From positions 62,001 to 126,000 of the forward strand of contig NZ_JAUPED010000007.1 in the NCBI RefSeq assembly GCF_030552475.1: a stretch of DNA of 64,000 bases, written 5' to 3'. Position numbers and translations under genes: made by a program. The notes beneath the pieces are model-generated. The model saw only the letters and a program-made list of their open reading frames with translations. It ran no database searches and was not told the DNA's origin. Origin of the DNA: Mariniflexile sp. AS56 (GTDB lineage: Bacteria; Bacteroidota; Bacteroidia; Flavobacteriales; Flavobacteriaceae). Shown piece after piece: positions 8,780 through 61,114 of the stretch; the stretch's first letter is position 1; each line of letters opens with the position of its first letter.

Positions 8780-8818
8780 TTTAAAATTAATATTTAATAA
8801 TCATAAATAAATTATAGA

Positions 8819-10282: not shown

Positions 10283-10309
10283 AATTTTTAGAGTAATTAA
10301 ATCAATAAA

Positions 10310-10354: not shown

Positions 10355-10415
10355 GCTTTTGTAAGGGGAAGATTTTTATAGATGATTTAGTAAAACTATA
10401 AAACAAAATATATTA

Positions 10416-12767: not shown

Positions 12768-12803
12768 TCAGATTTAAATTAAAATAGTTTTAAATGAATT
12801 ATT

Positions 12804-15005: not shown

Positions 15006-15081
15006 TAGTAGGGGGTGATGTTAAAATATTACAGGATACTCGGTTGTTTAAATAATTACTAATTAAATTAATAAGAAAAAA

Positions 15082-16206
15082 ATGGAGCAAATTCAGAAAA
15101 ATAAACTTTTACTTTCTCTTTTATTTATATTACTGGTTTTTATGCTTACTTCATGTAATTATAGGATTGACTCTTCAAATAAAGATAAACAGGGTACTAT
15201 TTACTCGCAAAGACTTTCTAAAGAAAAATTAGAGGAATGGCAGAACCTTAAATATGGGATGTTTATTCATTATGGTATGAGTACTTTTTTAGGAGAAGAA
15301 TTGCCAGATGGTAAGGCACCTATTGATGCGTATGCTCCAACAGATTTAGATGTTTCACAATGGATTCAGGTTGCAAAAGATGCGGGAATGAATTATGCCG
15401 TGTTAACAGCTAAACATGTTGCGGGGCATTGTCTTTGGCCTTCTAAGTATACAGAATATGATGTAGAAAACAATAAAGACAATACAGATGTAGTTGGTGA
15501 ATTTGTAAAAGAATGTAGGAAACAAGGTATTGCTCCAGGTATTTATTATTGTGCATGGGATAATCATCATGATTTTTTTAGTTTAATGCCCGACAAAAGT
15601 GAAAATTATTCGGGCGCTTTAATTACACCATCAGAAAAAGATCTTCATTTATCACCCCCTCCATTTACTACCTCATTATATCAAAATTTTATGACGGCAC
15701 AAATAGATGAATTATTAGAAAATTATGGGCCTTTAGTTCAGTTCTGGATAGATATTCCAATTATTCTAGGGAATGGCTATAGGGAATATATTTATAAGCA
15801 TATTACAGATAAGTACCCTGATATGTTGGTAATAATGAATCATGGTAAAAAACAAAAAGATGGTGAATTAGTTTTTCTGGAAGACAAAGCCTGGCCTAGT
15901 GATGCGCTTACTTTAGAAAGATATTACTCAGATAATCCGTATAATCCTATATGGACCATAAAAGGAAAGAAAACCTATTTTCCTGCAGAATCAAACCTCC
16001 CGATAGGTAATGAATGGTTTTGGGAAGACGATGATGAAGTTAAGCCGATGGATGATTTAGTGAAAATTTTTAATGGAAATTTAGATAATAAAGTGAATTT
16101 CCTTTTAAATGTACCACCTGATAGGTCTGGACAAATTCCTGAAAAGTGGATAAAACCCTTAATTGAATTGAAAAAGAGAATGAATCATAAAATTAATAAT
16201 AAATAG
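15082..16206 (+). CDS. GH29 alpha-L-fucosidase, compact lipoprotein
   Basis: A 374-aa lipoprotein (lipobox MLTSC, Cys about 25) carrying a GH29 barrel: LKYGMFIHYGMSTF, AKHVAGHCLWPSKYTEYD, and FWIDIP containing the candidate nucleophile Asp224. The end of the barrel reads VNFLLNVPPDRSGQIP. It stops soon after the catalytic domain and lacks the C-terminal sandwich of the first GH29, resembling the GH29 types that prefer branched or 1,3/1,4-linked fucose; subfamily placement is inference. Its stop at 16206 lies 2 bp before the GTG of the next gene, so the pair is probably translationally coupled. Confidence 0.88.
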   Translation: MEQIQKNKLLLSLLFILLVFMLTSCNYRIDSSNKDKQGTIYSQRLSKEKLEEWQNLKYGMFIHYGMSTFLGEELPDGKAPIDAYAPTDLDVSQWIQVAKDAGMNYAVLTAKHVAGHCLWPSKYTEYDVENNKDNTDVVGEFVKECRKQGIAPGIYYCAWDNHHDFFSLMPDKSENYSGALITPSEKDLHLSPPPFTTSLYQNFMTAQIDELLENYGPLVQFWIDIPIILGNGYREYIYKHITDKYPDMLVIMNHGKKQKDGELVFLEDKAWPSDALTLERYYSDNPYNPIWTIKGKKTYFPAESNLPIGNEWFWEDDDEVKPMDDLVKIFNGNLDNKVNFLLNVPPDRSGQIPEKWIKPLIELKKRMNHKINNK

Positions 16207-16208
16207 CA

Positions 16209-18179: not shown

Positions 18180-18220
18180 ATTATAAAAGTAAATAAACTT
18201 AAATATTAAATATTAAATAA

Positions 18221-20662
18221 ATGAAAAAGATAATCACAATTTTAGTCTTGTTTTTCCAACTTGTTTCTTTTGGACAATCGAACAATAAATCATCTATATT
18301 AACTAGTAGTGCCCCAGCCAATCGCTGGGATGATGCCTTAATTGGAGGTAATGGAGTTCAAGGAGTTATGGTTTATGGGAATCCATTAGAAGAAACAATT
18401 GTTTTTAATCATGAAAAATTATGGGTTCCTGCACAGCCTGTTAAACCCAATGTGCCTGATATGACTAAAGATTCTCGTACGCTTAGAGAACTTGCTAAAA
18501 CAGGAGAGTTTGCTAAGGCTTCTAAAGGCCTTCATAATGCTTTTTCTAGCGGAAACAGAGCTATTTACCCAGAAGAGGCACTAGTACGACCAGGGTCAAG
18601 GTTGGGTTTAAATTATGTGCATCCAGGGCTTTACTTAAAATTTTCTATCCCTAAAGAAGGAGACATTGAAAAATATAAGCGTTCGGTTAATTTAGAAACA
18701 GGAGAAATCAACGTCCAATGGGAAGATGAAAGAGGGGCGTGGAAGCGTGATGTATTTGTTTCAAGAGCTAACAATATTATTGTTACGCGTATTACAAAAC
18801 CTGAAAAAGCGAAACTTTCAATGTCTTTTCGTTTTGCAGCCCGTCCAGGTTGGAATGAAGATGATATAGCTGCTCCAGTTATAGAGCATAAGGATGGACA
18901 AATTTATTTGCATACTTACTATAAAAAATTACATGGACTTAAGGAACCAGATGGCTACCAAGCTATGGCTCGTGTTATTGTAAAAGGTGGACACAGTAAA
19001 GTGGAATCTGACCATATTGTTGTTTCTGAGGCAGATGAGGTATTGCTAATTTCTAGAGTTGAATATTTACCCGCTGCATCAAAAGGAACCCCAGAAATTT
19101 TAAATGCAGAACTTAATGGGCTTTCAGGTTCTTATGACCAATTGTTAAATTCACATATTCTTATTCATAAGGAAAGATTCAATCGTGTTAGTCTTGATTT
19201 GGGTGGAAATCATGGGATTGGAAAAACTACAGAACAGATTATAGCAGAATCGGCAAATGGACCTACTCCAGAATTATTAGAATTATTGTTTGATGTAGGG
19301 AGGTACAGTTTAATTTCTAGTAGTGGCGAACTTCCTCCAACCCTTATGGGTATTTGGGGTGATACATGGAATCCACGCTGGTGGGGGCATTATACTAATG
19401 ATTCAAATTTAAATCTTGCAATATCTTTTGGAAGTGTAGGCAACCAGCCAGAAGCTATGGAAAGTTATTTTGGTTGGATAGAATCACTTTATCCAGATTG
19501 GGAGCTAAATGCAAAAAACACATACGGCTGTCGTGGGTATATGGGGGCAATCTCTCATGGTTGGAGACATGGTACTACCATAGCAGGCTGGGAGCAATGG
19601 ACAGGAGCATCAGGTTGGTTAGGTGGTTATTTTTGGCAACATTATTTATTCACTGGTGATAAAATTTTTCTAGAAAATAGGGTAGTGCCATTATTAGAAA
19701 ATGTAGTGTTATTTTATCAGGATTTTTTAAAAAATATGGAAGGAAAAGATGGTAAATTTTTAATTTTTCCTAGCGTATCCCCAGAAAATTCACCTGGAAA
19801 ATATGAAGGCATGGATCCTAATCTTGCTATATCGGTTAATGCGAGTTCAGAAATCGCTATTATTCGAACATCAGTTAATTCATTAATTAAAGCTTATAAT
19901 GAGTTGGGGATAAATCAAGATAAAATTGTGGCGTTAGAGCGCTTTTTGGCTAAAGTGCCCGATTATCGCATTAATGAAGATGGTGCCATTGCCGAATGGA
20001 GCTATCCAAATATAAAAGATAATTACGATCACCGACATAATTCCCATTTGTATGCGGTATATCCAGGTAACGATATTAATCCAAGTACGCCAAAACTTTA
20101 CGAAGCAGCTAAAATTGCTATTAATAAGCGTATTGAGTCAGGTCAAGGAGATAAGTCAGCACATGGGTTTATGCATCTTGGTTTTATGGGAGCACGCCTT
20201 CATGCTCCAGAGATTTCATGGAACTCTTTAGATGTTTTTGCTAAGAATAATTACCTAAATAGCAGTTTAATTAGTTCTCATAATCCAAACAAGAATACTT
20301 ATAACTTAGATTCAACATTATCCCTACCTGCAATTATTACAGAAATGTGTTTAATTTCTCGTCCGGGTACATTGGATTTATTACCAGGGATTGATGTTGA
20401 AAAATTACCAACAGGAAAAATTAAGGGAATACTTGCTCAGAAAGCAATTATTGTTGATAGCATGGAATGGAATTGGGAAAACAGGGAAGTTAATCTTGTT
20501 GTGACCAGTAAAATTGATCAAACCATCGCAATAGAAAGTCGATTGGCAATAAAGTCTATCAATGATAAAAATATATCAAAAAACAGGAAGGATAAAAATG
20601 AAATTGATTTGCCAGCGAATGTTAAAGTACATGTGAAAATAGGTTTTGCCAAAAGTAAATAA
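18221..20662 (+). CDS. GH95 family alpha-L-fucosidase/galactosidase
   Basis: An inverting exo-enzyme (813 aa), usually alpha-1,2-L-fucosidase, with some members acting on L-galactose. Signal peptide ends at SFGQS. The N-terminal sandwich starts with RWDDALIGGNGVQGVMVYG and ETIVFNHEKLW (typical GH95). The (alpha/alpha)6 barrel includes FDVGRYSLISSSG, LMGIWGDTWNPRWWGHYTND, SVSPENSPG, and HRHNSHLYAVYPG. The segment that in characterised GH95 enzymes reads TxNINxQMNYWPA is here YTNDSNLNLAISFGS, so it is a divergent member, and its activity could differ. It is the last gene before the terminator at 20782. Confidence 0.9.
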   Translation: MKKIITILVLFFQLVSFGQSNNKSSILTSSAPANRWDDALIGGNGVQGVMVYGNPLEETIVFNHEKLWVPAQPVKPNVPDMTKDSRTLRELAKTGEFAKASKGLHNAFSSGNRAIYPEEALVRPGSRLGLNYVHPGLYLKFSIPKEGDIEKYKRSVNLETGEINVQWEDERGAWKRDVFVSRANNIIVTRITKPEKAKLSMSFRFAARPGWNEDDIAAPVIEHKDGQIYLHTYYKKLHGLKEPDGYQAMARVIVKGGHSKVESDHIVVSEADEVLLISRVEYLPAASKGTPEILNAELNGLSGSYDQLLNSHILIHKERFNRVSLDLGGNHGIGKTTEQIIAESANGPTPELLELLFDVGRYSLISSSGELPPTLMGIWGDTWNPRWWGHYTNDSNLNLAISFGSVGNQPEAMESYFGWIESLYPDWELNAKNTYGCRGYMGAISHGWRHGTTIAGWEQWTGASGWLGGYFWQHYLFTGDKIFLENRVVPLLENVVLFYQDFLKNMEGKDGKFLIFPSVSPENSPGKYEGMDPNLAISVNASSEIAIIRTSVNSLIKAYNELGINQDKIVALERFLAKVPDYRINEDGAIAEWSYPNIKDNYDHRHNSHLYAVYPGNDINPSTPKLYEAAKIAINKRIESGQGDKSAHGFMHLGFMGARLHAPEISWNSLDVFAKNNYLNSSLISSHNPNKNTYNLDSTLSLPAIITEMCLISRPGTLDLLPGIDVEKLPTGKIKGILAQKAIIVDSMEWNWENREVNLVVTSKIDQTIAIESRLAIKSINDKNISKNRKDKNEIDLPANVKVHVKIGFAKSK

Positions 20663-25552: not shown

Positions 25553-27892
25553 ATGAAAAAATGTAATAGTAATTTATTAATGTTTCTATTTATGAACATG
25601 TTACTCGGGAATGTATATTCTCAGGAAGCATTAAATATATACCTATCTCCTAAAGGGAATGATTTTAATAGTGGTACAGTGGATTCTCCTGTAAATACAT
25701 TGTCGGGTGCCAAAATACTTATTCAAAAATCAATTCAAGAAAAAAAATATAGAGAAGTCAATGTATTATTGGCAGATGGGGATTATAAAATTAAAGAAGA
25801 GGTTGTTTTTGATAGTTTATTGATGATGTCCAAAGATATTAAATTAAGTATTAAATCTAATGGCAAAGATAAAGCAACGATTTCTGGTGGTATGCGTATT
25901 CCGGCTTCTCTGTTTAAACCTGTTCGTTCTGATGTTTATGCGCGTTTGCACAAAAGTGCTGCTGGTAAAGTATATGTTGCTAATTTAAAAGGGGATGCTG
26001 CTGCTGGTGTTTTTAACGTGCTAGGAGAAGAAGGTGAAATTCATAAGAATCAGTCAGGCGATTTAATTTTACCTCCAAAATCCTCAGATTATAGTCTTTT
26101 AACTTGGAATGAATTTTCATTACAACTTGCACAATGGCCTAATCGAGGCTATTCACATATTAAAGAAGTTATTAAGGAAGGTCCTACAACGCGTTGGTTA
26201 AAACCAGAAGAAAGCCCAGCTCCTTATTCCTTAGAAAACCCTACAGGTGGTAAATTCAAAACTCATGAACAGACTGATTGGGCTAAGTGGGATGCCGAAT
26301 TTAAAAAAAATGGACAGGTGGTAGTGCAAGGTTATTTGCATAATGATTGGTATTTTCAAAGCGAACGTATAGGAGCAATTGAAAATGGAGAAGTTCAGTT
26401 ATTGCATCATACACGTTATGGTGTGGTGGATAGTCAAAAAGGGATACCACGTCGCGCTCGCGTAGTTAACATGTTGTGTGAATTGGATCAGCCCGGTGAA
26501 TGGTATTTTGATATACAGGAGAAGAAGTTGTACTTATGGCCAATTAGTGCTATGAAATCGTCAGTTAATATCTCCGTTGCAGGAGGCGGTAATATGTTAC
26601 GTTTCGACCAACTTAGTAATGTGAGTATTGAGAATATTGTATTTCAGAATGGTGGTGAACTCGCTATCGGTATTAATGGAGGTGAAAATAATAAAGTTGT
26701 AGGATGTGATTTTCGCAATTTTGTAAAAAAAGGAGTTGATATTAATGGCGGAAAGAATAATGGTATTGTTGCATGTACATTTAAAGGTTTATACAGTGCT
26801 GCCTCAATTAGTGGAGGCGATCGCAAAACATTAGAAGCATGTAATAATTATTTCATCAATAACGAAATTGCCGAATGTCGTTTACGTGGTTATGGAGTCG
26901 TGGGTATTCATGGTGTAGGTATTGAGTGTTCTCATAATTTATTTCACACAATGAATGGAGCACTTATTTTTAAAGGTAACGATATTACTATTGAGTATAA
27001 TGAGTTCTATAATATGGGTTGGGAAATGGGTGATTGGAATGCTTGTTATACAGGATCTGACTGGGCCTCTTTTGGGAATAAATTTCAATACAATTTCATT
27101 CATCACTTGATGGAAACCCCAGGAGCTTACCCAGTGGAAGGTGTGCGTAATGATGATCTTGGAATGGGTGTGGCATTTAATAGTAATGTATTTTATAAAT
27201 CAGGTAGAGGAAGTATTGCCTTCTCTGGTGCAGGTAACGATTGTAGGAATAATATAGCTTTAGAGACAACAACTGTATGGCAAGCCTTTTATGCGTCAAA
27301 GGACGTAGATAAAGTTAGAGCAGAATGGGAAAAACGACGTGCTTATGATGATGGTATAAAGCGTCGAGGTGATAAGGAAGATAACCTTTGGCGTGCAGAA
27401 CAGAACTATGGTAAGATGGGATGGCTATTTGAACCCTATAAATCTAAATATCTTACTCTAAAAAAAATCATGAATGACGGGAATCCTTTTGCCCCATCAT
27501 TTGGAGTAATCAATAAAAACTATGTACAAGAGTCTAGTATGTCAACTAGTGGCTCGAACAAAGGAGGATTATATATGCACGGTTGTACAGTGGAAGATTT
27601 ACCTATAACTACTAGTTGGGAATATCCTAAACCCATTACTATGGACGCTTTTGTAGATGCATCGACACTTAATTTCAAGATGAAGGATGATTTTCAACCA
27701 ATGGTAGGGTTTGATAAAATTCCGTTTGAAGAGATTGGTTTGTTTATTGATAATTACCGTCGTTCAATGCCCGATAAAGATAAATATAGAAAAGCCATTA
27801 AAAAGCGTTTCGATGGTGTAAAATCTAACGGTGGTCGTTACGATATGAAGACAGCGTATAAAAGATATCCATTGCCAATCTATTTAGAATAA
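25553..27892 (+). CDS. secreted beta-helix enzyme, paralogue of the 21059 protein
   Basis: A 779-aa protein with a signal peptide (ends NVYSQ) and no T9SS tail or CBM. Opening NIYLSPKGNDFNSG; wall-domain motifs LQLAQWPNRGYSHI, ESPAPYSLENPTGGKF and PGEWYFDIQEKKLYLWPI; beta-helix about 340-560. It aligns along the entire core with the gene at 21059 (shared GYLxNDW, HTRYG, PRR, GDWNxxYxGxDxAxFGNKxQYNF and ETPGAxPV). The two therefore arose by duplication and have diverged, one gaining or keeping CBM6 and T9SS modules. It is probably a fucosidase-like or other exo/endo enzyme of the GH141-type clan (inference). A 291-bp gap separates it from the Fn3 lipoprotein. Confidence 0.78.
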   Translation: MKKCNSNLLMFLFMNMLLGNVYSQEALNIYLSPKGNDFNSGTVDSPVNTLSGAKILIQKSIQEKKYREVNVLLADGDYKIKEEVVFDSLLMMSKDIKLSIKSNGKDKATISGGMRIPASLFKPVRSDVYARLHKSAAGKVYVANLKGDAAAGVFNVLGEEGEIHKNQSGDLILPPKSSDYSLLTWNEFSLQLAQWPNRGYSHIKEVIKEGPTTRWLKPEESPAPYSLENPTGGKFKTHEQTDWAKWDAEFKKNGQVVVQGYLHNDWYFQSERIGAIENGEVQLLHHTRYGVVDSQKGIPRRARVVNMLCELDQPGEWYFDIQEKKLYLWPISAMKSSVNISVAGGGNMLRFDQLSNVSIENIVFQNGGELAIGINGGENNKVVGCDFRNFVKKGVDINGGKNNGIVACTFKGLYSAASISGGDRKTLEACNNYFINNEIAECRLRGYGVVGIHGVGIECSHNLFHTMNGALIFKGNDITIEYNEFYNMGWEMGDWNACYTGSDWASFGNKFQYNFIHHLMETPGAYPVEGVRNDDLGMGVAFNSNVFYKSGRGSIAFSGAGNDCRNNIALETTTVWQAFYASKDVDKVRAEWEKRRAYDDGIKRRGDKEDNLWRAEQNYGKMGWLFEPYKSKYLTLKKIMNDGNPFAPSFGVINKNYVQESSMSTSGSNKGGLYMHGCTVEDLPITTSWEYPKPITMDAFVDASTLNFKMKDDFQPMVGFDKIPFEEIGLFIDNYRRSMPDKDKYRKAIKKRFDGVKSNGGRYDMKTAYKRYPLPIYLE

Positions 27893-29660: not shown

Positions 29661-31016
29661 ATGATAAAAACGTACGCCATATTTATACTTTTAATAGCAG
29701 AAATTATAATGTGTAATGTATCTTATTCACAAGAATTAGTTGTACCTATTGATTGGGGAAACTTTAAAAAAGATAATCCTAGCCAAGAGTTTTTATTGAG
29801 TTCAAAACTTATAGCAAATGCCGGTAGATACTCCTATACATGGGCAAACGATTTCTACAAATCTTCTGAAACTAATGACATGTTTATTATTGAAAATGTC
29901 AATAAAGAACAACCGATTCGTACACCATCAAGTGCCGCATTAGGATTAGCTGTAGCAATTAAGACAGGAATAGAACCACAATTAATGGGAGGTTCTTATT
30001 ATGAAATTGAAAAGACAATTATAAAACTCGTTAAAGGGGTTGTCATAAACCACAAAGCTAATGGAGGAAAATGGGGAGACCACTGGCAATCAACTTTATG
30101 GGTAGCGCAGATTGCACGTGCGGGCTGGATGCTTTGGGATAAATTAGATAAAAACACTCAAGAGATGCTATGTAAAGCATTGATATACGAAGCAAATAGA
30201 CATATTTTTCCTGCTTATAAAATTGAGTACTGGAACGGAGAAGGAGGAAACTCTCGTGCAGAAGAAAACTCCTGGGATTCTATGCCGCTTCAGTTAGCCA
30301 TTGCCATGATGCCCTATCATCCAAATGTAAAAGACTGGAAAGAAGTTTGCAGTAGATTACTTATTAGCGCTTATTCGGTAAAGAATGATATGAGTAAAAC
30401 CAAGCCTAAATTAGATGGAAAATCACCAAAAGAGTGGTTAGACGGCTACAATGTTCGTGAAGACGGTATTGTTATAAATCACAACATATTACATAATGAC
30501 TATATGGTTTCTATTGCTCATTTACAGATGTCTGGATTTCTAGTGTTTTCCTTAGCACAACAAAAAGTTCCTCAGACATTGGATCACAACTTTAGATTTA
30601 TTTATAAAACCCTAGTTAGCAAGAAATTTATGGCCCCGCCTTATAAGGCACCAGGAGGAACGATGTATATCCCGGAAAGTCCTGAACAATATTACCCCGA
30701 AGGAACAGATTGGTCAAAGTATAGATATGCTTGTTATTATGGTATGGATGCTCTAGTGGATATTTTAAAATATGACAAGAAGTTACCAAAAGCAGCAGAA
30801 TGGAGAAAATTAAGGGCGGAAAGAATATTAGAACTACAATCTCGACATGAAGACGGCCGAATGTATGAGAAAGGGGAATATGATAATTATTGGGGTAAAG
30901 AACAAATGGTATTCTGGATGATGGCAGATGCTCACATGTTACAATGGCTGGCAGACAAGGACGCATTGTCGAAAAAAAGTAATTGGCTTAGGCACAAATA
31001 CTTAATGCTTAACTAA
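29661..31016 (+). CDS. secreted alpha-helical barrel-like protein, unrecognised family, candidate glycosidase
   Basis: A 451-aa protein with a signal peptide (ends NVSYSQ). The rest is rich in helices with regularly spaced Trp and Gly motifs typical of (alpha/alpha) toroids: NHKANGGKWGDHWQ, RAEENSWDSMPLQLAIAMMP, NVREDGIVINHNI, APPYKAPGGTMYIPE, and PEGTDWS. I do not recognise the family; GH88/GH105/GH154-type barrels or lyase toroids are candidates only. A clear but frameshifted paralogue lies at 37676, and conserved acidic residues between the two (AEEN and EDG) are candidate active-site positions. The genes around it all encode glycan breakdown. Confidence 0.7.
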   Translation: MIKTYAIFILLIAEIIMCNVSYSQELVVPIDWGNFKKDNPSQEFLLSSKLIANAGRYSYTWANDFYKSSETNDMFIIENVNKEQPIRTPSSAALGLAVAIKTGIEPQLMGGSYYEIEKTIIKLVKGVVINHKANGGKWGDHWQSTLWVAQIARAGWMLWDKLDKNTQEMLCKALIYEANRHIFPAYKIEYWNGEGGNSRAEENSWDSMPLQLAIAMMPYHPNVKDWKEVCSRLLISAYSVKNDMSKTKPKLDGKSPKEWLDGYNVREDGIVINHNILHNDYMVSIAHLQMSGFLVFSLAQQKVPQTLDHNFRFIYKTLVSKKFMAPPYKAPGGTMYIPESPEQYYPEGTDWSKYRYACYYGMDALVDILKYDKKLPKAAEWRKLRAERILELQSRHEDGRMYEKGEYDNYWGKEQMVFWMMADAHMLQWLADKDALSKKSNWLRHKYLMLN

Positions 31017-31394
31017 AAAATGATAAACAATCTTTATCGTTTAAAACCGTCTGTGCCTAATAACTAAGATTTCGTTTTGCCAATAGGCTAAAAATGAATT
31101 CTGCGTTGAGGAATCTGGTTAATTTGACGTACTATGGGTAAAACGATGCGTTTAGGGAAGGCTATTTGGTGGTCTTGATGGAATTGATGTGATCAAAATG
31201 TTTAACGTTCACTTGTTTACTAACATTTTTGGGTGATTTTTTTAGTGGTTTTAATTTGCGTTTTCTGCGTTTTATCACTTCGTTTTATCACTTCGTTTTA
31301 AAGTTAAGCCATAGCAGAGCTAGGCCGCTTTTGCAGATGTAATGGTAGTTAATTAGTTAGTTATATTCATTAACTTAGGCTTTAGTAAAACGTG
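31017..31394. other. gene-free flank of the dead IS region
   Basis: No open frame of note. It holds the short tandem repeat at 31268-31300 and presumably one terminus of the IS91-type element. Confidence 0.4.
31268..31300. repeat. 2.5 copies of a 13-bp tandem repeat
   Basis: CGTTTTATCACTT occurs at 31268-31280 and 31281-31293, with a partial third copy to 31300. It lies about 100 bp beyond the transposase 3' end. Confidence 0.8.
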
Positions 31395-32486
31395 CTAATT
31401 GTCGGTTGGCCCACGGTCATTAAACAACAAAATGGTATGCAGTCTTCCCTTTTTACAAACAGGACATTGGCGGTGTAAAACGGGGTTGTCTGTTTTAATT
31501 GGTTCTATTTTTACGGTAGCTAGTTCAGCTTGTAGTTTTGGCAATTTCTTTTTCTTCCAACTGCTGCTTAAAATCCCATAATGCCGGATGCGGGTAAATC
31601 TTTTTGGTAAAATATGTAAAGTAAAACACGTTATAAACTCCCCACTCAATACCGTTAAATTGGTTTTCTTACCACCACGACGGTAATCTTTGGCAGTGAA
31701 GGAGACTTGCTTATTTTTACTATCAATATTTGTATCCCTATGGTTTTCAATGGCTCTTTGGTGGATATAACTGCATAAGTATTCTATCACATATTTTGGA
31801 CTTCTAAAAGGCTCTTTGGCATAAACCACGCACTTTTTTCGGAATACGTCATTGTAAATTTTCTGAGGAATTTTTAAATCACTTTTTCTGAGATCTGCTA
31901 TATACTTAGCTCGAAACACCTGGCTCATGGATTTAACATTGAAGAGGTATTTGCCCTTGTTCTTGGCTGTTTTTCATTGTCCCGATTGACTTAAATTACC
32001 TCTTGGAACCATGCAGTACAAGTGCGGGTGTAAACTCATGATCTGACCTCAAGTATGCAGTACCGCAATCATGCCAATGCTACCACCCAAGTGTTTGGGA
32101 TTGTTACCAAATTGCTGCAAAGTCTGCCATGCTGCCTTAGACAAATTGCCATACACTATTTTGCAGTGGTTTAGCGCATAGCTATTAAACTCGCTTGGAA
32201 GGGTAAATACTAGATGAAAATAAGGTACATTTAAAAGTTCGCCTTCTCGTGCCCGAATCCATTCTTCGCGTTTATGTCCTTGGCAAGTTGGGCAGTGTCT
32301 GTTCCTGCAACTGTTGTAACTAATCTGTAAGGCGTGGTAACAATCGCATTTATCAATGTGTCCGCCCATCGCTTTGGTACGGCACCTGGTCTACAAAGCT
32401 CGGTAATGCCACGAAGTTAAGCTCAAACTTTTAAGTTGCAGCTATTCCATCTCTAAAATGTCCGCCACCGTATGTCGGGGACTCAT
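31395..32486 (-). pseudogene. IS91-family transposase, inactivated by in-frame stops
   Basis: A single frame of 364 codons from the ATG at 32486 to the TGA... stop at 31395 keeps the whole family layout: the N-terminal zinc region SYNSCRNRHCPTCQGHKREE, a LHPHLYCMVP segment containing the HxH site, and a C-terminal VCKKGR zinc knuckle. The frame is interrupted by stops near residues 15 and 30 and by two TGA codons (32049-32051 and about 31972), each where the family usually has Trp (TWGQ and KWKTAK contexts). The pattern is point mutation without frameshift, indicating a relatively recent death. Confidence 0.85.
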
Positions 32487-32946
32487 TAATCGTAGAGTTT
32501 GTCCAGTGCAGAATACTTCGAACCACTGGGCGGATTGTCCACCCCGAAAATACGGAGCAGGCTATGCAGATAGGTTAGCGTCATTTCAATATGCGCATGC
32601 CCTAAAAGTTCTTTTAGGCAAACAATATTAACGCCATATTCCAACAAATGTGTGGCAAAAATATGGCGCAAGTTGTGGTCGGTTATTTTCTTTGAGCTGC
32701 CTATTTTACTGCGGTTTCCCTAATGATCCAGCCAATACCATTGGTGGTTAATCCTTGAGTTTCTCCATCTTTGGTAACCTGAAGGTTGAAAAGATATATT
32801 TGAGAATTTTCAATTTTAATGTATGTTTTAAGTCTTCTAATTAAGAATATTCTTAAAGGTCCATAACGGTCAATCTTCCCTGTTTTCTTGGGAATAAATA
32901 CTGTTTTTCGAGCAAAATCAATGTCTGACCACTTTAAGTTGCAAAG
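32486..32946 (-). pseudogene. tyrosine recombinase/integrase fragment
   Basis: The catalytic half is readable: KWSDIDFARKTVFIPKKTG at the upstream end, then DGETQGLTTNGIGWIIRE, a frameshift near 32703-32720, and HNLRHIFATHLLEYG followed by KELLGHAHIEMTLTYLH, which contains the R-H-R...H-Y active-site pattern. The first Arg-bearing helix and the N-terminal SAM-like domain are missing beyond 32946, where an IS3 relic abuts. Confidence 0.75.
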
Positions 32947-32999
32947 TTAGTGGCTATGAAGTGTGCAACCCTAAAGCATCCCAATAATTATTTTCTTGA

Positions 33000-33446
33000 A
33001 CTATAAGTAAGTGGCTTTTAGGGTTCTAAACAACCTATCTTCCCACTTTAACTGTGTCTAATTCAGCCTCTAATAAAAAATATAATTTTCGAGTATCTAA
33101 GCGTGGAATCTTTATGCGCAATTAATGACTTGTTGGGCTAAATGTTTCTTAAGTATTCTTGCTTTTTCGTCCTATAATAAACCTGTCAATTCATTCCCCA
33201 AGTAATCTGCGGAAGAAACAATTGTTTTTTGTGTTTGTTAGCGATAGTATTCGACAACTTTGGTGTGTAATTTATTTTCTTATTTGGGTAACGTATTTAT
33301 TTTCAATCATTTCAACGATCGTATCAAAAAATAATAACTTTTTTATCGGCTCTCTCAGCAAGATGTTCTGCCCTAGCTTTTTTCTTTTCAAGAGGCTTCA
33401 CTTTACTCTCTAATTCAATAATTCTTTGTTCTGATGTTTTTGTCAT
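33000..33446 (-). pseudogene. IS3-family (IS150-like) transposase relic, orfA end and orfB start
   Basis: On the minus strand, from an ATG at 33446, the translation MTKTSEQRIIELESKVKPLE followed by KKKARAEHLAERADKK matches orfA coiled-coil sequences of Bacteroidetes IS3 elements. After a frameshift it continues DTIVEMIENKY. Farther on, QVYYRTKKQEYLRNI and RIKIPRLDTRKLYFLLEAEL then VKVGR match the beginning of orfB, with several stops. The catalytic DDE core is absent. It ends where the integrase fragment begins, so one element probably interrupted or deleted the other. Confidence 0.7.
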
Positions 33447-33716
33447 GGTACTTAAAGATAAATTTTCCCAATCAAAGGCGCAATTTTTTTATTCCATTGA
33501 GTTATTTGGCTCGTAATTGAACATCATCAATGAGATGAGCATCTAATCGATTTTTTGAACCACTTGAAGCTTAAAAGAAAACGATTAATCTTTTTAGTTT
33601 TTTTTTAAATAGAAACCGAACAAATTAGTAGTTAAATTAGGAATATTTGTCTCTATATATAAAGTTCTTTATTAGTTTCTTTGGTAACTATATTCAACAT
33701 AAATTATACAAATATT

Positions 33717-36044
33717 ATGACAGTAAAATTGATATCTCTAAAAGGTTTATTCTTATTATTTATTTTAAGTTTTAATAATTTAATAGCAAAAAACAATTTA
33801 AATTATGAAAACACATATTATCAACAAGAGTCTTTAATTATCGAGGCTTTACCTAATAATTTATCCGATAATTTATCAATACCTATTACCTATTTAGGAG
33901 AACTATTGACTTTAGAACTTGAGAGAAGTTCTGTTTATGGTCATAATACTAGAATTTTAGTAGATAACGGGACAGGAAAGTTAATTGAAGTGGAAAAAAC
34001 TGAAGAATGTACATACACAGGGTATGTTAAAGAACATTTAGGATATTATGTTAATGCTGTTATTACTCCAAAAGGTTTAATTGCTACTATAATTAAATCT
34101 AGAGATGAAAAAATAGAAATAAGACCGCTATTAGAAGATAAAAAGACTCATGAAATTTTTACTATTAAAACAGAAAAACCACACACACCTACTTATGAAG
34201 TTGTAAAAAGGGAATATTCTAATTCTGTAGTTCAAAATAAAAATTTAACGTGGGATCTTTTTTCCAATAATTTAAAGAAAATAATATTAGAAAAAAAACC
34301 AAAAACGCAGGGTGCTACTTTAGTCCCAACAACAGTAATGGATGTTCTTGAATATGAAATAGGAGTAGAAATTGGATCGAGATCATTCCTGGCGGAGGCT
34401 TATAATGGAGATTTAGCCATTGCTCAAGCTTCTGCACAATCAATTATTGGAAACCTTAATAGGCGTTATCTTCCTGGTGCTGGAGTTAAATTCACACTTG
34501 GTACTGTTATAATTAGAACAAATGCGAGTACTGATCCATTAAGAGATTTAGTGACAGGTACTGGAACAGCCTCTACTGCAAATTCAAGTCTTGCAGCTTT
34601 TAAAGATTACTGGAATAATAATCCAGACGAAGTTGGCACAACTCACGATATAGCTGTATATCACGTAAAATCAGCTCCGTCTGGTTTGGCTTATGTTAAT
34701 AATGTAGGAACTTCTAATAGATATGGTACTATGGGAGGAAATGGAGCTACCAGTTGGGCCGATGGAACAGCCGTGCATGAAGTAGGTCATATTTGGAACC
34801 TCAGACACACGAGTAGTTCTGGTATCTTTTATGAAAATAGACCAAGAGTTGATGCCGGTGCGACTAGTTCAGGAGGAAGAGATTATACTATCAGCGTTAT
34901 GCATGGATCAGGAAATCATAATATAGGAAGGTTCTCTACAGAAGAAGCTCAGGTTGTTAGAGAGGTGCTTAATAGAAAACGCGCTATTGGAAACTCACCA
35001 TCAAACTTAGGTGAAATAAAACCATTTGGTGTATACGATAGGTTTTTTATGGAATCTAATGACCCTATTACTATAGATGTTGTTTCAAATGATTATGATG
35101 TTAATAATGATGTTTTAGATGTTAGGGTTTTAGATCAAGTTAGTAACTTAGGGGGCACTATTAGTCTCTCTACCGGTACTGGCCCAGGAGGAAGAAATGA
35201 GCTTATTTATACACCACCTGTATCTGGCCTTAATGGGCAAGATTTTTTCCATTATACCGTTTTTGATACATCGGGACTTACCGATTTTGGAGCTGTTTAT
35301 GTCACACGTGAAGCCTCCCTTTTTAATGAGAATAGTGATGAATTCAGATTTGATTTAGGTACAAAAACATCAGCTCTTTGGCCTGGTTATGATAGAGTAC
35401 ATGCAACAACTTCTAATGATTTATACGGATGGGTTGATTCTACCAATTTAAGTGATAGAGATAGAGGAACTGATGGAGGAGCTAATAACCTTAATAGAGA
35501 TTTGTGTCATTCTTCTGAACCTGCAACATTTGAAACAAAAGTGCAAAATGGTAAATGGAAGGTACTTATTACATTTGGAGATACTTTTTCTCATGATGAG
35601 ATATATGTTAAAGCAGAAGGTGTGGATAAAGTAGTAGGTGTCGATGTCACACCAAATATATATTTTAATGAAATATTTGAAGTAGATGTAGCAGATGGCA
35701 AGTTGTCGTTAGAGTTCTCAGATCGAGGAGGCAGTGATAGTAATTGGGTGGCTACTAGAATTTGGTTAACTTATTTGGGTACTTTAAGTGTAGAGAATAA
35801 TGGTATTGAAGATGTTTTTTCTGTTTATCCAAATCCTACAAATTCCATTTTGAATATAAAAATTAACGGAAATAGAAGTGGTTCACTGTCAATTGTAGAT
35901 GTATTAGGCAATGTGGTGTATACAAAAAAAGAATTAGAAAATATGGAAACAGTAATAGATGTCAGCCATTGGGCAAAAGGAACTTATTTTATCACTTATG
36001 AAAGAGAAGCAATCGAAATCACAAAAAAAATTATAATTCATTAA
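33717..36044 (+). CDS. T9SS-secreted zinc metallopeptidase with beta-domains
   Basis: A 775-aa protein with a signal peptide (about 1-25). The propeptide-like N-terminal region is followed by a metzincin-type zinc site HEVGHIWNLRH (His354, Glu355, His358, His364) and a possible Met-turn in SVMHGSGNHNIGRF. Then come a cadherin/Big-like domain (about 430-530; DPITIDVVSNDYDVNNDV), a domain starting FRFDLGTKTSALWPGYDRV that resembles the malectin/CBM-like modules of secreted glycan enzymes (about 545-690), and a T9SS type-A sorting domain (YPNPTNSILNI to the C-terminus). It would cleave proteins outside the cell. Start ATG 33717 is favoured over an in-frame TTG at 33681. It is unusual inside a glycan locus. 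Confidence 0.82.
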   Translation: MTVKLISLKGLFLLFILSFNNLIAKNNLNYENTYYQQESLIIEALPNNLSDNLSIPITYLGELLTLELERSSVYGHNTRILVDNGTGKLIEVEKTEECTYTGYVKEHLGYYVNAVITPKGLIATIIKSRDEKIEIRPLLEDKKTHEIFTIKTEKPHTPTYEVVKREYSNSVVQNKNLTWDLFSNNLKKIILEKKPKTQGATLVPTTVMDVLEYEIGVEIGSRSFLAEAYNGDLAIAQASAQSIIGNLNRRYLPGAGVKFTLGTVIIRTNASTDPLRDLVTGTGTASTANSSLAAFKDYWNNNPDEVGTTHDIAVYHVKSAPSGLAYVNNVGTSNRYGTMGGNGATSWADGTAVHEVGHIWNLRHTSSSGIFYENRPRVDAGATSSGGRDYTISVMHGSGNHNIGRFSTEEAQVVREVLNRKRAIGNSPSNLGEIKPFGVYDRFFMESNDPITIDVVSNDYDVNNDVLDVRVLDQVSNLGGTISLSTGTGPGGRNELIYTPPVSGLNGQDFFHYTVFDTSGLTDFGAVYVTREASLFNENSDEFRFDLGTKTSALWPGYDRVHATTSNDLYGWVDSTNLSDRDRGTDGGANNLNRDLCHSSEPATFETKVQNGKWKVLITFGDTFSHDEIYVKAEGVDKVVGVDVTPNIYFNEIFEVDVADGKLSLEFSDRGGSDSNWVATRIWLTYLGTLSVENNGIEDVFSVYPNPTNSILNIKINGNRSGSLSIVDVLGNVVYTKKELENMETVIDVSHWAKGTYFITYEREAIEITKKIIIH

Positions 36045-36389
36045 TTATTTTAAAAAGCCAAAGTAAAGGAGGTTGTTCCAATGATTATAAAGATTAACTA
36101 AGAATAAATGATAAGCAAAAATTAATCAAGTAAGCAATAATGTAATTGCTAAGCTTTAATTAGTAACTTTAAATAATAAATTATCTGTATCGCTTTTCTA
36201 GAAAGTGACAGTTGTATTTCTTGAAAATTGTTTAGTAATCCAAATAATGGTGATATTTGTTTATAAATATAGATTTGCTGATTATGAAGAATCCAGTACG
36301 GTGGGAGGTTTTTAAAATCTTAAAATGAATTTATATAATTTATAAAAATGAAAGATATACAAAATAAACTTAATAGAATATTAAAGAAA
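36045..36389. other. intergenic region upstream of GH105
   Basis: About 345 bp without a gene; holds the candidate promoter box at 36270. No terminator with a T-run was found after the peptidase gene. Confidence 0.4.
36270..36277 (+). promoter_or_regulatory. candidate flavobacterial -7 box
   Basis: TAGATTTG fits the Bacteroidetes sigma factor consensus TAnnTTTG and lies about 110 bp before the GH105 start. A matching TTG at the -33 position was not evident, so this is tentative. Confidence 0.3.
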
Positions 36390-37502
36390 ATGAAAACATT
36401 AAAAATTGTCATCATGTTTGCAATATTTGCCATTGCAAGCTCATCGCAAGCCCAAGAAATAAAACCACTAGAAGTAAAAAAAGTCATGGAAAAAGTGGCT
36501 GACTGGCAAATGGCACATTTTAATGATTCGTACAGTGGAAATAAAGAGCCTCATCATCAATTAGATTGGACCAATGGCGCTTTATATGTGGGTATGGTGA
36601 AGTGGGCAGAAATGACTGGTGACGAGAAATATTATAATTGGCTTAAAGAAATTGGAGAAAATAATGAATGGAAATTGTATTTCCGTAAATACCATGCAGA
36701 TGATCACACCGTAGGTCAATTATATATTGAATTATACCGTAAGTTTAAGGATGATAAAATGATTAAACCAACAAAAGATCAGTTCAATTTTATTATGCTT
36801 CATCCTGCACAAACTTTAATGAATTGGAAGACTCCTTATCACCAAGACCGCTGGAATTGGTGTGATGCGCTATTCATGTCTCCGCCTGTTTGGGCTAAAC
36901 TTTATAACATAACAAGAGAGGAAAAATACCTTGATTTTTTAATGAAGGAATACAAAGCATCAACAGATTTTTTATTTGATAAAAAAGAAAGTCTTTATTA
37001 CCGGGACGAAAAATATATAGGGAAGTTGGACAATGGTACAAAAATATTTTGGGCACGCGGTAACGGTTGGGTATTTGCTGGTCTTGTAAATATTATGAAT
37101 GAATTAGATTCAAATAGCAAAGAATATAAGTATTTTTTGAAAATTTACAAAAAAATGGCGAATAAATTACTTAAAACTCAAACACCACAAGGGCATTGGG
37201 CAATGAGTATATTAGGTCAAGACTTTTATACTACACCTGAAACAAGTGGTTCATCATTTTTTATTTATGGTTTAGCTTGGGGATTAAATAATGGTGTTTT
37301 AGATAAAACAACCTACGCACCTGCTGTTAAAAAAGGATGGAATGCCATGGTGGGGCATGTTACAGAAGATGGTATGTTAGGTTATGTTCAGCCCATTGGA
37401 GCTGCTCCTGGAAAAGCGTGGCCTGACAAAACTGAAGTTTACGGAACTGGAGCTTTTTTAAGTGCCGGAACAGAAGTATATAAATTGTATGGGGGAGAAT
37501 AA
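36390..37502 (+). CDS. GH105 unsaturated uronyl hydrolase
   Basis: Hydrolyses the 4,5-unsaturated uronic acid left at the non-reducing end by a polysaccharide lyase. The 370-aa secreted protein (signal peptide ends SSSQA) has the (alpha/alpha)6 layout of YteR/YesR-type rhamnogalacturonyl hydrolases: DWTNGALYVGM, YHADDHTVGQLY, DRWNWCDALFMSPPVW with the catalytic Asp159, FWARGNGWVFAGL, and ETSGSSFFIYGLAWG. Length is normal. ATG 36390 was chosen because the signal peptide starts there; an upstream ATG at 36348 adds 14 residues. Together with GH88 at 46807 it shows that lyase products are handled here. Confidence 0.92.
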   Translation: MKTLKIVIMFAIFAIASSSQAQEIKPLEVKKVMEKVADWQMAHFNDSYSGNKEPHHQLDWTNGALYVGMVKWAEMTGDEKYYNWLKEIGENNEWKLYFRKYHADDHTVGQLYIELYRKFKDDKMIKPTKDQFNFIMLHPAQTLMNWKTPYHQDRWNWCDALFMSPPVWAKLYNITREEKYLDFLMKEYKASTDFLFDKKESLYYRDEKYIGKLDNGTKIFWARGNGWVFAGLVNIMNELDSNSKEYKYFLKIYKKMANKLLKTQTPQGHWAMSILGQDFYTTPETSGSSFFIYGLAWGLNNGVLDKTTYAPAVKKGWNAMVGHVTEDGMLGYVQPIGAAPGKAWPDKTEVYGTGAFLSAGTEVYKLYGGE

Positions 37503-37675
37503 AATATTTAGTTTGTTCATATGACTATGCCCAGTAGTAAACTTATTTACATAGAGTAATATAAGTAAATTCAGGGTGTGTAAAACACCTAGCTATTGCA
37601 TCTAAAGTAACAACGTAAATCATTTTCAACCTGTAGCCATATTTTAAAATTAAAAATTAAAAGAAATTATTAAAA

Positions 37676-38966
37676 ATGAGAAGGACAATTTTTATTACTA
37701 TTTGGTCTGTTTTTTCAGTTTTCCTGATGAATGTATTTGGACAAGTTCTTCCACAATGGAATAAATTAAATTTAGAAAGCACAGAAGACACTCTAACCTT
37801 AAAAATTAATAAACTAACAAATAATTCATTAAAATTCATTCTCAACAATGAAAAAGGATTCTCTTGGTTTATACATTTTTAATGGCGTTAGCGAACATTC
37901 AATACGTCCACCAGCACAAACAGTTATGGCGCTAGGTATTGCACTATCAATTAATATCTATGATGAAAAAATTGTAGGAATATCTAATATTGAAGCAAAA
38001 GAAATACAAACAAATTTAATTAAATCACTTTTAAAAGAGCATAAAGCCAACGGAGGCAAATGGGGAAATTGTTGGCAATGCGCTCACTGGGCATTTTATA
38101 GTGGTTTTGGTGCATGGCTTTCTTTAGATTTATTAGACACGGAAACAGAAGAACAGTTACTGAAAATGATTGTTATGGAAGCTAATAATTTTAATAAAGA
38201 ACCTCCATATTGTAACGATTGCACCAATGATACCAAGGCCGAAGAAAATGCTTGGAATGCAAACATTTTGACTTTGGCTTTGGCTACAATGCCAAAACAT
38301 GAAAATGCAAAATGGTGGAAAGAGCGAGCTAGCCAATGGATGCTTTCGGCGTATTCTCGTGAATCTGATTTATCCAATAATCCAATTATTGATGGTAAGC
38401 CTATAAATCATTGGATATCTGGATGGAATATGCATGAAGATGGTTATGTTTATAATCATAATCGTATACATCCTTATTATACAGCTGCTGCAAACATTAA
38501 TTTATGGAACCCATTGGTTTTTACTTTAGCAAACCAAAAAGGCTTGCAGGCCGCATATTGGAATATGAGCTATGTATATAAACAACTTATAGATTTTAAA
38601 TGGCAGAATCCTCCTTATCAAGCTCCAGGAGGAACAATTTACCGACGTGACTCAAACACACTTCATGCAACGGTTTATTACCCAAACGGTACAGATTGGT
38701 CAGTGAATTTAGTTGATAATTTTTTTATGTTTGACGTTCAATGTTCTGTTATGGGTTTAGATAATTTGGTGGATATTTCAGCAGTAAAATGGGCTAATAC
38801 GCGTGCAGATTATATGCTGTGGATGCAATCTCGATCAACAACTGGACAACTTTATACGAAAGAAGACAATTTAAATTTCCCTCCAAAGGAGAGTAAAGCG
38901 GCATCCATGTTTGCGCTCGCCAGACTTACTATTATGTTAAAACAAGACATTGGAAAAAAACTATAG
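37676..38966 (+). pseudogene. frameshifted paralogue of the helical enzyme at 29661
   Basis: The first frame (37676-37882) gives a signal peptide (ends NVFGQ) and about 45 more residues; the second frame (from about 37848 to 38966) carries the rest. They overlap by 35 bp, and the family continuity switches frame near 37855, in an AAAAAGG-type run. Shared motifs with the 29661 protein: EHKANGGKWGNCWQ, AEENAWNANILTLALATMP, HEDGYVYNHNRIHP, PPYQAPGGT, and PNGTDWS. One indel or a sequencing error in the poly-A run separates it from an intact gene of about 428 residues. Product family unrecognised. Confidence 0.75.
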
Positions 38967-46666: not shown

Positions 46667-46806
46667 TGAATGAGGTTGCTTGTGATAGGTTAATTAGCCT
46701 AAAACTTATTAAAAATCAATTAATCTGAGAATATAAATATCTATTAATAAACATGCATTCCAGTCTTAGTTTTGAAGTTGAAAAAATAAAATTATTAAAA
46801 TATATT

Positions 46807-48015
46807 ATGTCGTATTTAAAAGGAAAATTAAGATTGTCAATGATAGTTTTGGTTTGTGTCGTTACATATAGCTGTAAAACGAAACCATCAAAAGAGTTCA
46901 ATTTAGAAGCTGTTGTTTCAAAAACAGAAAAGCAATTAAGTTATCATTATGGCATTGTTGAGAAATATCAAGAAGATAATTTATTACCAAGATCTATAGA
47001 TGAAAAAGGATTGGTGATGGTGCCTTCAGACGATTGGACAAGTGGCTTTTTTCCAGGTGAATTGTGGATGATGTATGATTTAACAGACAACGCTATATGG
47101 AAAGAAAGAGCCATAAAGTACACGGAGTATTTAGAAAGCGAGCAGTTTAATACGGGCACACACGATGTTGGTTTTATGATGTATTGCAGCTATGGCCATG
47201 GGTATAAAACAACGGGTAGTTCTAAATATAAAGATATTCTTATTCAAACAGCCAAATCATTAGCGAGTCGGTATAATCCAACATTAAAAAGTATTCGTTC
47301 TTGGGATCATAGTACTTCACTGTATACATTTCCTGTTATTATAGATAATATGATGAATATGGAATTATTGCTATGGGCAAGTCAGGAAACAGGCGATCCT
47401 TACTATAAAAATATCGCAATAAATCATACAAATACAACACTTAAGAATCACTTTAGAGGTGATAATTCGTCATACCATGTTGTAGATTATTCACCCGAAA
47501 AAGGAGAGATTATAAAAAAAGTAACCAACCAAGGTTATGCAGACGAATCAGCTTGGTCTCGTGGGCAAGCTTGGGGTTTGTACGGATTTACAGTCATGTA
47601 TCGCGCCACAAAAGATGAAGCATATCTTAAACAAGCAGAACGCATTGCTAAATTCATTCTATCTCACAAAAATTTACCAGAAGACAAAATTCCTTATTGG
47701 GATTTTGATGCTCCTAAATTACCTAACGAACCCAGAGATGCCTCTGCTGCCGCTATTATAGCTTCAGGTTTGTATGAACTTGCTGGGTATTCAAAGAATA
47801 GTATAGAATATTTAGAAGTTGCTGATACTATGTTAAAATCATTATCTACTGAAAAATACTTGAATAAAAAAGGAACAAAATATGGTTTTTTGCTATCGCA
47901 TTCTACAGGAAATTGGCCTAGAAATTCAGAAATAGATGAACCCATTGTGTATGCGGATTATTATTATCTTGAAGCCCTAAATAGAAAAAAAAGATTGAAT
48001 GCAATTACTTACTAA
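46807..48015 (+). CDS. GH88 unsaturated glucuronyl hydrolase lipoprotein
   Basis: Removes the delta-4,5-unsaturated uronic acid from lyase-generated oligosaccharides. A 402-aa lipoprotein (lipobox VTYSC, Cys23) with the GH88 (alpha/alpha)6 barrel: DWTSGFFPGELWMMY, GTHDVGFMMYCSYG (Asp120), IIDNMMNMELLLWAS with the second catalytic Asp180, NQGYADESAWSRGQAWGLYGF, and DASAAAIIASGLYEL. ATG 46807 places the lipoprotein signal at the N-terminus; an earlier ATG at 46753 adds 18 residues. It is 10 bp before the next gene. Its presence with GH105 suggests two different unsaturated uronyl linkages. Confidence 0.93.
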   Translation: MSYLKGKLRLSMIVLVCVVTYSCKTKPSKEFNLEAVVSKTEKQLSYHYGIVEKYQEDNLLPRSIDEKGLVMVPSDDWTSGFFPGELWMMYDLTDNAIWKERAIKYTEYLESEQFNTGTHDVGFMMYCSYGHGYKTTGSSKYKDILIQTAKSLASRYNPTLKSIRSWDHSTSLYTFPVIIDNMMNMELLLWASQETGDPYYKNIAINHTNTTLKNHFRGDNSSYHVVDYSPEKGEIIKKVTNQGYADESAWSRGQAWGLYGFTVMYRATKDEAYLKQAERIAKFILSHKNLPEDKIPYWDFDAPKLPNEPRDASAAAIIASGLYELAGYSKNSIEYLEVADTMLKSLSTEKYLNKKGTKYGFLLSHSTGNWPRNSEIDEPIVYADYYYLEALNRKKRLNAITY

Positions 48016-49686: not shown

Positions 49687-51177
49687 ATGAAAAAAATAAT
49701 TGTTATAATGTGTATAAGCTTATCACAACTGGTATTAAATGCACAAGAAGCACCTTATAAACCCACATTGGAATCATTGTCTAATCATGTAAATGCACCA
49801 GAGTGGCTAGTAGATGCCAAATTGGGAATATACTTCCATTGGGGATTGTATAGCGTGCCTGCTTATTCGAATGAATGGTATCCTTGGTATATGTATAAAA
49901 CTGATGATAATGAAGTAGCTAAGTATCATCGTGAAACCTACGGGGATCCTACTAAATTTAATTATCACGATTTTGCTCCTATGTTTACGGCAGAGCATTT
50001 TGATGCAGCTAATTGGGCTAAATTGTTCAAGGAAGCTGGAGCTAAATTTGCAGGACCGGTAGCCATTCATCATGACGGTTTTGCTATGTGGGATAGTAAA
50101 GTTAATCCGTGGAATTCTAAAGATAAAGGTCCTAAAAAAGATATTACTGGATTATTGTTAAAGGAACTTAAGAAAGAAGGATTGAAAACTATAACCACAT
50201 TTCACCACGCTAGAACACTGCAACGAAATGCTGATAATCCAGCAGAGTGGGAAGGGTTTACCAGTCATTTTGCTTATAATCCTGAGTTTGTTACAGCTTC
50301 AACTGATCCTAATTTAAGAAAATTATATGGCAATATGCCTGCTTCTGAATTTCACGATTATTGGTTTGCAGAGTTAAAGGAGGTTGTAGACCAATATTCA
50401 CCCGATATTGTGTGGTTTGACTCTTGGTTAAACATGATTCCTGAGCAGTATAGAAATGATTTCGCTGCTTATTATTTTAATGAAGCTAATAAAAAGAAAC
50501 AAGAGGTGGCACTTGTAACTAAACAGTACGATTACCCAAAAGCGTTTAGTGTTCTGGATATTGAACAAGGGGGGAAAAAAGATTTGTCAGAGTCGGTTTG
50601 GATGACTGATGTTACTTTAGGATTAGGCTCTTGGTGCTATACAAACGGTTTAAAATATAAATCGGCTGATTTAGTACTTCGCAACATGATTGATGTGTGG
50701 AGTAAAAATGGTATTGTTCTATTGAATCTTTCTCCTCGTAAAGATGGGGTGATTCCTCAAGAACAGCGCGATGTTGTTTTAGAAGTAGGGGAATGGTTAA
50801 AAACGTATGGAGAATCGGTATATGGTACACGTCCTTATAAAGTTTATGGTTTTGGAAATGCGAATGTGGCAGATGGACATTTTGGTGGGCAATCTGCGGA
50901 AACTCAGTACAGTGCAGACGATATACGTTTTACACGGTCTAAAGACGAAAAAACAGTGTATGTTTTCTTTTTAGGTAAGCCTGAGATAGGAAAAACAGTA
51001 GGCTTAAGGATATTGGGTCCACATCGTTACCCTTTGTATTCAAAATTAAAGCGTGTCACCCTTCTTGGTAGCGATGTTGAAGCAAAATTCAAAGTAGATT
51101 CCGATAATGTATTTATAACTATTCCAGATGCCAAAATGGATGATTTGGCAACCGTTTTTAAGTTTGAATTAGAATAA
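49687..51177 (+). CDS. GH29 alpha-L-fucosidase, secreted
   Basis: A 496-aa protein with signal peptide (ends LVLNAQ). GH29 signatures: DAKLGIYFHWGLYSVPAYSNEWYPWYMY, AIHHDGFAMWDSKVNPWN, PDIVWFDSWLN with nucleophile Asp245, and NGIVLLNLSPRKDGVIP; C-terminal sandwich from about 370. The EWYPWYMY and HHDGFAMWDS versions are typical of the longer GH29 group. It lies 38 bp after the beta-helix gene and 10 bp before the BNR_4 gene. It differs from the three GH29 enzymes of the first operon, so the locus likely removes fucose in several linkages or contexts. Confidence 0.94.
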   Translation: MKKIIVIMCISLSQLVLNAQEAPYKPTLESLSNHVNAPEWLVDAKLGIYFHWGLYSVPAYSNEWYPWYMYKTDDNEVAKYHRETYGDPTKFNYHDFAPMFTAEHFDAANWAKLFKEAGAKFAGPVAIHHDGFAMWDSKVNPWNSKDKGPKKDITGLLLKELKKEGLKTITTFHHARTLQRNADNPAEWEGFTSHFAYNPEFVTASTDPNLRKLYGNMPASEFHDYWFAELKEVVDQYSPDIVWFDSWLNMIPEQYRNDFAAYYFNEANKKKQEVALVTKQYDYPKAFSVLDIEQGGKKDLSESVWMTDVTLGLGSWCYTNGLKYKSADLVLRNMIDVWSKNGIVLLNLSPRKDGVIPQEQRDVVLEVGEWLKTYGESVYGTRPYKVYGFGNANVADGHFGGQSAETQYSADDIRFTRSKDEKTVYVFFLGKPEIGKTVGLRILGPHRYPLYSKLKRVTLLGSDVEAKFKVDSDNVFITIPDAKMDDLATVFKFELE

Positions 51178-61105: not shown

Positions 61106-61114
61106 ATTAAGGAT

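Follow-up and report, generated by a model that had tools for sequence, protein, structure and literature searches.

Toroid-type polysaccharide lyases (PLs) are described, in PMC12088678, as relying on an Asn neutralizer together with a Tyr and a His; the catalytic residues tabulated there (Table 4) are N192/Y246/H401 for PL35, N183/H233/Y242 for PL8 and N236/H291/Y299 for PL23, and the neutralizer of PL21 is given as Glu205. In PL35, a C-terminal beta-sheet domain supplies the catalytic His (PMC12088678), and in one published locus PL35 is paired with glycoside hydrolase (GH) family 88 (PMC12269599), a likeness to the locus described here. We analysed a 64,000-nucleotide stretch of the Mariniflexile sp. 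AS56 genome (hereafter, the window; contig NZ_JAUPED010000007.1, C47:62001-126000 in our numbering of the genome), which carries two related genes, W1 and W2. With a probability that we put at about 70%, W1, and W2 before it was broken, encodes a secreted, toroid-only PL acting on a uronate polymer; we infer the catalysis, the roles of individual residues and the substrate.

W1 (29661..31016, + strand) is an open frame of 451 amino acids (aa) consisting of the toroid only, with an N-terminus that looks signal-like by eye. W2 (37676..38966, + strand) is interrupted. Its 5' frame, starting at 37676, codes for MRRTIFITIWSVFSVFLMNVFGQ..., which by eye again looks signal-like, and ends after 68 codons, whereas the homologous frame runs on past this stop one base out of register, so that a frameshift can be placed near 37850; this may be either a real lesion or an assembly error. 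The intact 3' part of W2 (37848-38966, + strand, 372 aa) retains the EE, NH and Y residues discussed below. The initial annotation had proposed that the two proteins form a related pair, one intact and one frameshifted, sharing a set of motifs (NGGKWG..WQ, AEEN.W, EDG.V.NHN, APGGT and GTDWS), and this is borne out: they are 36% identical over 359 aligned columns (E=4e-71), far beyond chance, and the pairwise alignment contains all of the motifs in both. The pair had also been taken for a duplication within the locus. W1 and W2 are the only two family matches found in the 4.65-Mb genome, but a recent local duplication had to be rejected, because a 15-row tree unites W1 with its relatives from a Saccharicrinis metagenome-assembled genome (L005) and from Carboxylicivirga (L004) at 100/100 support and leaves W2 outside this group. 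The two genes are therefore deep paralogues or separate acquisitions rather than a local copy.

The view that the family was unrecognized holds for the libraries searched. Neither W1 nor W2 has a match above the cut-off in Pfam, NCBIfam or PHROGs, and no PDB sequence was matched by W1 with phmmer (E up to 1), by a 6-row family profile or by a 13-row family profile (E up to 10). Two matches below the cut-off, FliW for W2 (E=0.12) and Peptidase_M15_4 for the Carboxylicivirga protein (E=0.003), were discarded. No description of the family was found in the open-access literature among the matches listed, which is a weak negative. The family thus appears to be unnamed in Pfam, NCBIfam, PHROGs and the PDB sequences and may still fall within an existing CAZy family, for example, PL33, PL37, PL38, PL40 or one of PL41-PL44; what seems to be new is the sequence family, the kind of enzyme being already known.

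An (alpha/alpha)-toroid had been anticipated from the letters of the sequence, and the predicted W1 fold is indeed an (alpha/alpha)6 toroid. The AlphaFold model of W1 built with nine sequences has 12 main helices, a mean predicted local distance difference test (pLDDT) of 84.2 and a predicted template modelling score (pTM) of 0.88; the same nine sequences led by the phage protein L015 gave values of 84.6 and 0.89, respectively. In VIA-align comparisons, the top row for both models was the PL35 chondroitinase 9o3q (W1 model: Z 21.4, root-mean-square deviation 3.4 A, 300 residues aligned; L015-led model: Z 21.4, 3.1 A, 290 aligned). The PL35 enzymes GAGase II, GAGase VII and BcPL35 share the (alpha/alpha)6 toroid with W1, and 9o3q, 8khw and 8khv are among the best fold matches, but the solved members 8khv, 8khw and 9o3q have no sequence match to the family in the phmmer and 13-row profile searches (E up to 1 and up to 10, respectively). 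Unlike PL35, with its His-bearing C-terminal domain, W1 is a toroid alone, only 19 residues following its last predicted helix (413-432). A toroid-only protein must hold all its catalytic groups within the toroid, and the EE and NH/Y groups of W1 are so placed in the model. The Asn-Asn of PL35 would correspond to a Glu pair in the W1 family, at a position that we assign by analogy.

Conservation across the family points to one face of this predicted fold. Eleven positions are invariant in all 13 aligned relatives, namely, W138, G139, E177, E201, E202, W205, N264, N273, H274, Y281 and P346 (residue numbers here and below are those of the W1 protein). All 11 lie in the odd-to-even helix connections, defined as reaching three residues into the first helix and six into the next, which make up 207 of the 391 residues (Fisher p=8e-4). 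The enrichment persists as the threshold is lowered: 17 of the 19 positions conserved in at least 12 of the 13 rows fall in these connections (the exceptions being P218 and W226), as do 26 of 33 at 11 rows and 36 of 53 at 10 rows (p=0.013). In the W1 model, the invariant residues share one face of the toroid, where the EE..W group (E201/E202, W205) opens helix 6 and the NH......Y group (H274, Y281) opens helix 8. The proposal that the shared motifs form an active site is therefore upheld in part: conserved residues gather on one face, but APGGT is not general across the 13 relatives. By analogy with the PL8, PL23 and PL35 residues tabulated in PMC12088678, the EE..W and NH......Y groups would be the neutralizer and acid/base positions, respectively; in PL8 and PL23, His and Tyr lie near each other in the toroid (H233/Y242 and H291/Y299), a pairing for which the invariant H274 and Y281 would be the candidates in the W1 family.

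The gene neighbourhoods point to unsaturated uronate chemistry. GH88 enzymes remove the unsaturated uronate left by lyases. The window encodes a GH88/GH105 unsaturated uronyl hydrolase (36348..37502, + strand; PF07470, E=3.9e-88) whose gene starts 5.3 kb after W1 and ends 173 bases before W2 (distances here and below are from open reading frame to open reading frame), with the best PDB match to the unsaturated 3S-rhamnoglycuronyl hydrolase 4ce7 of the ulvan pathway (E=1.7e-64), and a second, divergent GH88-like protein (46753..48015, + strand; PF07470, E=3e-8). Among five genomes tested, which carry 3-7 PF07470 matches each in total, such a match lies less than 0.5 kb from a family gene in four: that of the window (G000, where the nearby member is W2, not W1), G139 (147 bases, a weak match with E=2.4e-9), G483 (95 bases) and G947 (486 bases). 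In the fifth, G170, a SusC/SusD-type pair, a GH43 gene and an adjacent DUF2264 protein are found in place of GH88; the latter has its best PDB match to 8oi4, named beta-galactosidase (E=8.3e-171), and also matches the beta-D-glucuronate dehydratases 9o4u (E=1.4e-121) and 9nwf (E=1e-120). A 2025 paper argues that this DUF2264/GH154-type family consists of dehydratases (PMC12269599). Alongside its GH88-like gene, the G139 locus has genes for a DUF2264 protein, a sulfatase and an esterase; in Carboxylicivirga, the GH88 gene lies 3.5 kb upstream of the family gene. Overall, across nine cellular loci, GH88 is present in five (the window, Carboxylicivirga, G139, G483 and G947), GH154-type genes in two (G139 and G170) and one or the other in six. 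Immediately upstream of the Carboxylicivirga family gene, a 625-aa protein (3941-5818 of that locus, + strand), without Pfam or PDB sequence matches, is possibly another unnamed enzyme.

Family members also occur next to phage tail genes, a setting that fits a chain-cutting role. The L015 protein follows genes for a major tail and a tail protein (PHROG), and the L020 protein comes directly after a minor-tail-like protein. In a Klebsiella prophage record, the family protein WP_301688482.1 follows a TipJ-type tail protein; the L016 protein is near-identical to it and has an N-terminal module common to tail fibres. The L027 contig encodes a phage-type helicase and an exonuclease, whereas L028 is viral by its IMG/VR assignment only, with no PHROG match in the three of its proteins scanned. 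In L028, the protein that ends in the toroid (6573-9011, + strand) has a collagen-like GPQGPQG stretch resembling, by eye, that of some tail fibres. In the haloarchaeon Halocatena (L017), the family gene stands among genes for GH78, GH10, sulfatases and L-rhamnose mutarotase. In G1223, the gene has an ABC-type pair for polysaccharide export on one side and glycosyltransferases on the other, names that we read from the translations. The G1223 protein (locus L053, 9469-10641, - strand), judged by eye, is a distant member with a signal-like start that keeps EE and NH but has W205 replaced by Ile.

Taken as a mechanism, a uronate-containing chain would bind across one face of the (alpha/alpha)6 toroid, where E201/E202 and W205, together with N264 and N273, might hold and neutralize the uronate carboxylate, while H274 and Y281 could abstract the proton at C5 and donate one to the leaving oxygen in a beta-elimination. 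The 4,5-unsaturated uronate so produced would be removed by the neighbouring GH88, fucosidases of the locus would strip side chains, and on phage tail proteins the toroid domain would cut the host capsule. The substrate is most likely a fucosylated, uronate-containing polysaccharide of algal or bacterial origin. Tentatively, at somewhat less than even odds, the family as a whole could be a new one of toroid-only lyases, with the Glu pair and His/Tyr within the toroid, serving in three settings, namely, feeding on acidic polysaccharides (in bacteria and the haloarchaeon), capsule cutting by phage tails and trimming of the cell's own exported polysaccharide. If these proteins are lyases, hypothetical proteins such as WP_301688482.1 of the Klebsiella prophage and WP_264556860.1 of Halocatena gain a testable function, and the enzyme could serve as a tool for fucose/uronate polymers.

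Several results weigh against a lyase. The Foldseek comparison that had been suggested alongside structure prediction found no PDB match for the W1 model at E up to 0.001, and in VIA-align, cellobiose 2-epimerases and GAGase VII equalled 9o3q for both models, with dermatan sulfate epimerase and GH88/GH105 scoring level with the lyases or slightly lower. Alignment by hhalign to a four-sequence PL8 profile was insignificant (probability 0.2%, E=0.36), as were single-sequence alignments to three proteins encoded in the window's own genome, two of them with PF05426 and one with PF16889. Asn203, the nearest analogue of the usual neutralizer Asn, is present in only nine of the 13 rows, and an invariant pair of Glu is not typical of lyases, although PL21 uses a Glu. 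The GH88 neighbourhoods do speak for a lyase, the chance of GH88 lying near the family gene in at least four of five genomes coming to ~2e-7 with 5-kb flanks, uniform placement and G1223 left out, but this estimate is too favourable because carbohydrate genes cluster, and it was computed without a matched control. Finally, neither GH88 nor GH154 was detected in the Saccharicrinis locus, which ends at a contig end on its upstream side, the Halocatena locus or G1223, using small custom hidden Markov models (four GH88 and two DUF2264 proteins from the same loci) that also overlooked the two weak GH88-like genes which Pfam picks up.

W1 has no Pfam match to PL8 (PF08124), and neither W1 nor W2 matches the alginate-lyase type PF05426 or the heparinase II/III type PF16889 at E up to 1. 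The best PDB Foldseek row for W1 (E=4.2e-3), labelled transaldolase AprG, is taken as a fold match only, and a search of BFVD with W1 gave nothing at E up to 0.001. None of the 50 VIA-align rows listed is a PL38 or PL5 chain, which excludes nothing.

The predicted toroid by itself cannot tell a lyase from a hydrolase, a dehydratase or an epimerase. Where the initial annotation left the choice between a new glycosidase and a lyase, the neighbours (GH88/GH154) and the residues favour the latter. An unlikely alternative is a glycoside hydrolase in which two of the invariant E177, E201 and E202 act as acid and base on a fucose/uronate polymer; three invariant Glu do lie on the conserved face, many of the toroid fold matches are hydrolases and the window locus is rich in them, but the invariant NH and Tyr, along with the GH88/GH154 neighbours, point to unsaturated uronate chemistry. 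GH88/GH105 and 5noa (BACCELL_00875) have toroids of similar size (Z about 18-20), and GH88 is also a gene neighbour, but W1 has no PF07470 match and its hhalign comparison with the window's GH88 was insignificant.

The same unsaturated uronate chemistry could come from an oligosaccharide uronate dehydratase that eliminates water to create the unsaturated end, in the manner of GH154 or P29_PDnc, both of which are co-located with GH88/GH105 in PMC8511951 and PMC12269599. We regard this as improbable. The fold is similar, GH154-type structures 9nwf and 9o4u appearing among the W1 Foldseek rows, but W1 and W2 lack a Pfam match to DUF2264 (PF10022), the family profile has no PDB sequence match, a DUF2264/GH154-type gene already lies beside the family gene in two loci, and the phage tail members imply polymer cutting.

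It is very improbable that W1 is a C5-uronate epimerase resembling dermatan sulfate epimerase. The structure 6hzn does rank near the top for both models (Z 19.9 and 20.6) and one member sits in the capsule-export cluster of G1223, but, G1223 aside, the annotated cellular loci appear degradative, and it is not evident what a phage tail would gain from such an activity. Cellobiose 2-epimerase and its relatives likewise share the toroid (Z about 21) but have no sequence match to the W1 family, which occurs in degradative and phage contexts. A non-catalytic binding or structural toroid, to which the long branches of some phage members might point, is hardly credible, since members from bacteria, phages and an archaeon share polar invariants (E, E, E, N, N, H, Y) that fall on a single face.

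The family to which we ascribe this putative lyase activity is rare among the genomes searched. In overlapping genome sets, and counting the window's own genome, matches were found in 3 of 295 genomes of its class (single-sequence search) and 4 of 395 of its phylum; the only match among 296 genomes of its order is the window's genome itself. The classes of G139 and G483 yielded 3 of 395 and 2 of 391, respectively. Among its cellular relatives are the proteins of the Saccharicrinis metagenome-assembled genome (88% identical to W1) and of Carboxylicivirga (62%). At the DNA level, the Saccharicrinis gene is 88% identical to W1 over 1376 columns and, within the DNA compared, the similarity ends near the gene ends, suggesting that the gene was transferred as a unit. 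In the plasmid database PLSDB, two records from Halocatena marina and one from Klebsiella pneumoniae carry a family gene, and four scans of IMG/VR yielded eight distinct contigs, the surroundings of five of which were viewed. Neither W1 nor the domains of L015, L016, L020, L027 and L028 matched known phage records in tblastn, and the L016 domain found nothing in E. coli by megablast. The tree neither establishes nor refutes a single origin of the phage members, giving it 60/84 support, with long branches in three of the five phage rows. Longer relatives (L009, L031 and L017) have C-terminal extensions, and the G139 protein carries a SASA esterase domain as a fusion partner.

Pfam assignments support the fucose/uronate character of the window locus, with fucosidases, GH95 and GH88 all present. 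A GH3 gene, three alpha-L-fucosidase genes (PF01120), two beta-helix proteins and GH95 (6227..20662, + strand) make up its fucose side-chain enzymes, and a fourth alpha-L-fucosidase gene follows at 49687..51177 (+ strand; PF01120, E=7.8e-93). Upstream of W1 lies a right-handed beta-helix protein with a GH141 insertion-domain match below the cut-off (25553..27892, + strand). Remnants of an IS91-type transposase (31395..32369, - strand; PF04986, Y2_Tnp, paired with the Zn_Tnp_IS91 domain PF14319) separate W1 from W2, and part of the DNA of this region (~31397-31499) is matched at 83% on contig C1. Downstream of both genes, the window carries mobilization genes: DUF5712, a TraG/TrwB-type coupling protein and a SMEK protein (60074-63859, + strand) represent a mobile element beside the sugar locus. 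A GH63/MGH1-like glycosidase apparently split into two open reading frames (41181-42518, - strand) is possibly a second broken sugar enzyme near W2, and a Reprolysin-like metalloprotease with a Por secretion tail is encoded within the sugar locus (33681-36044, + strand).

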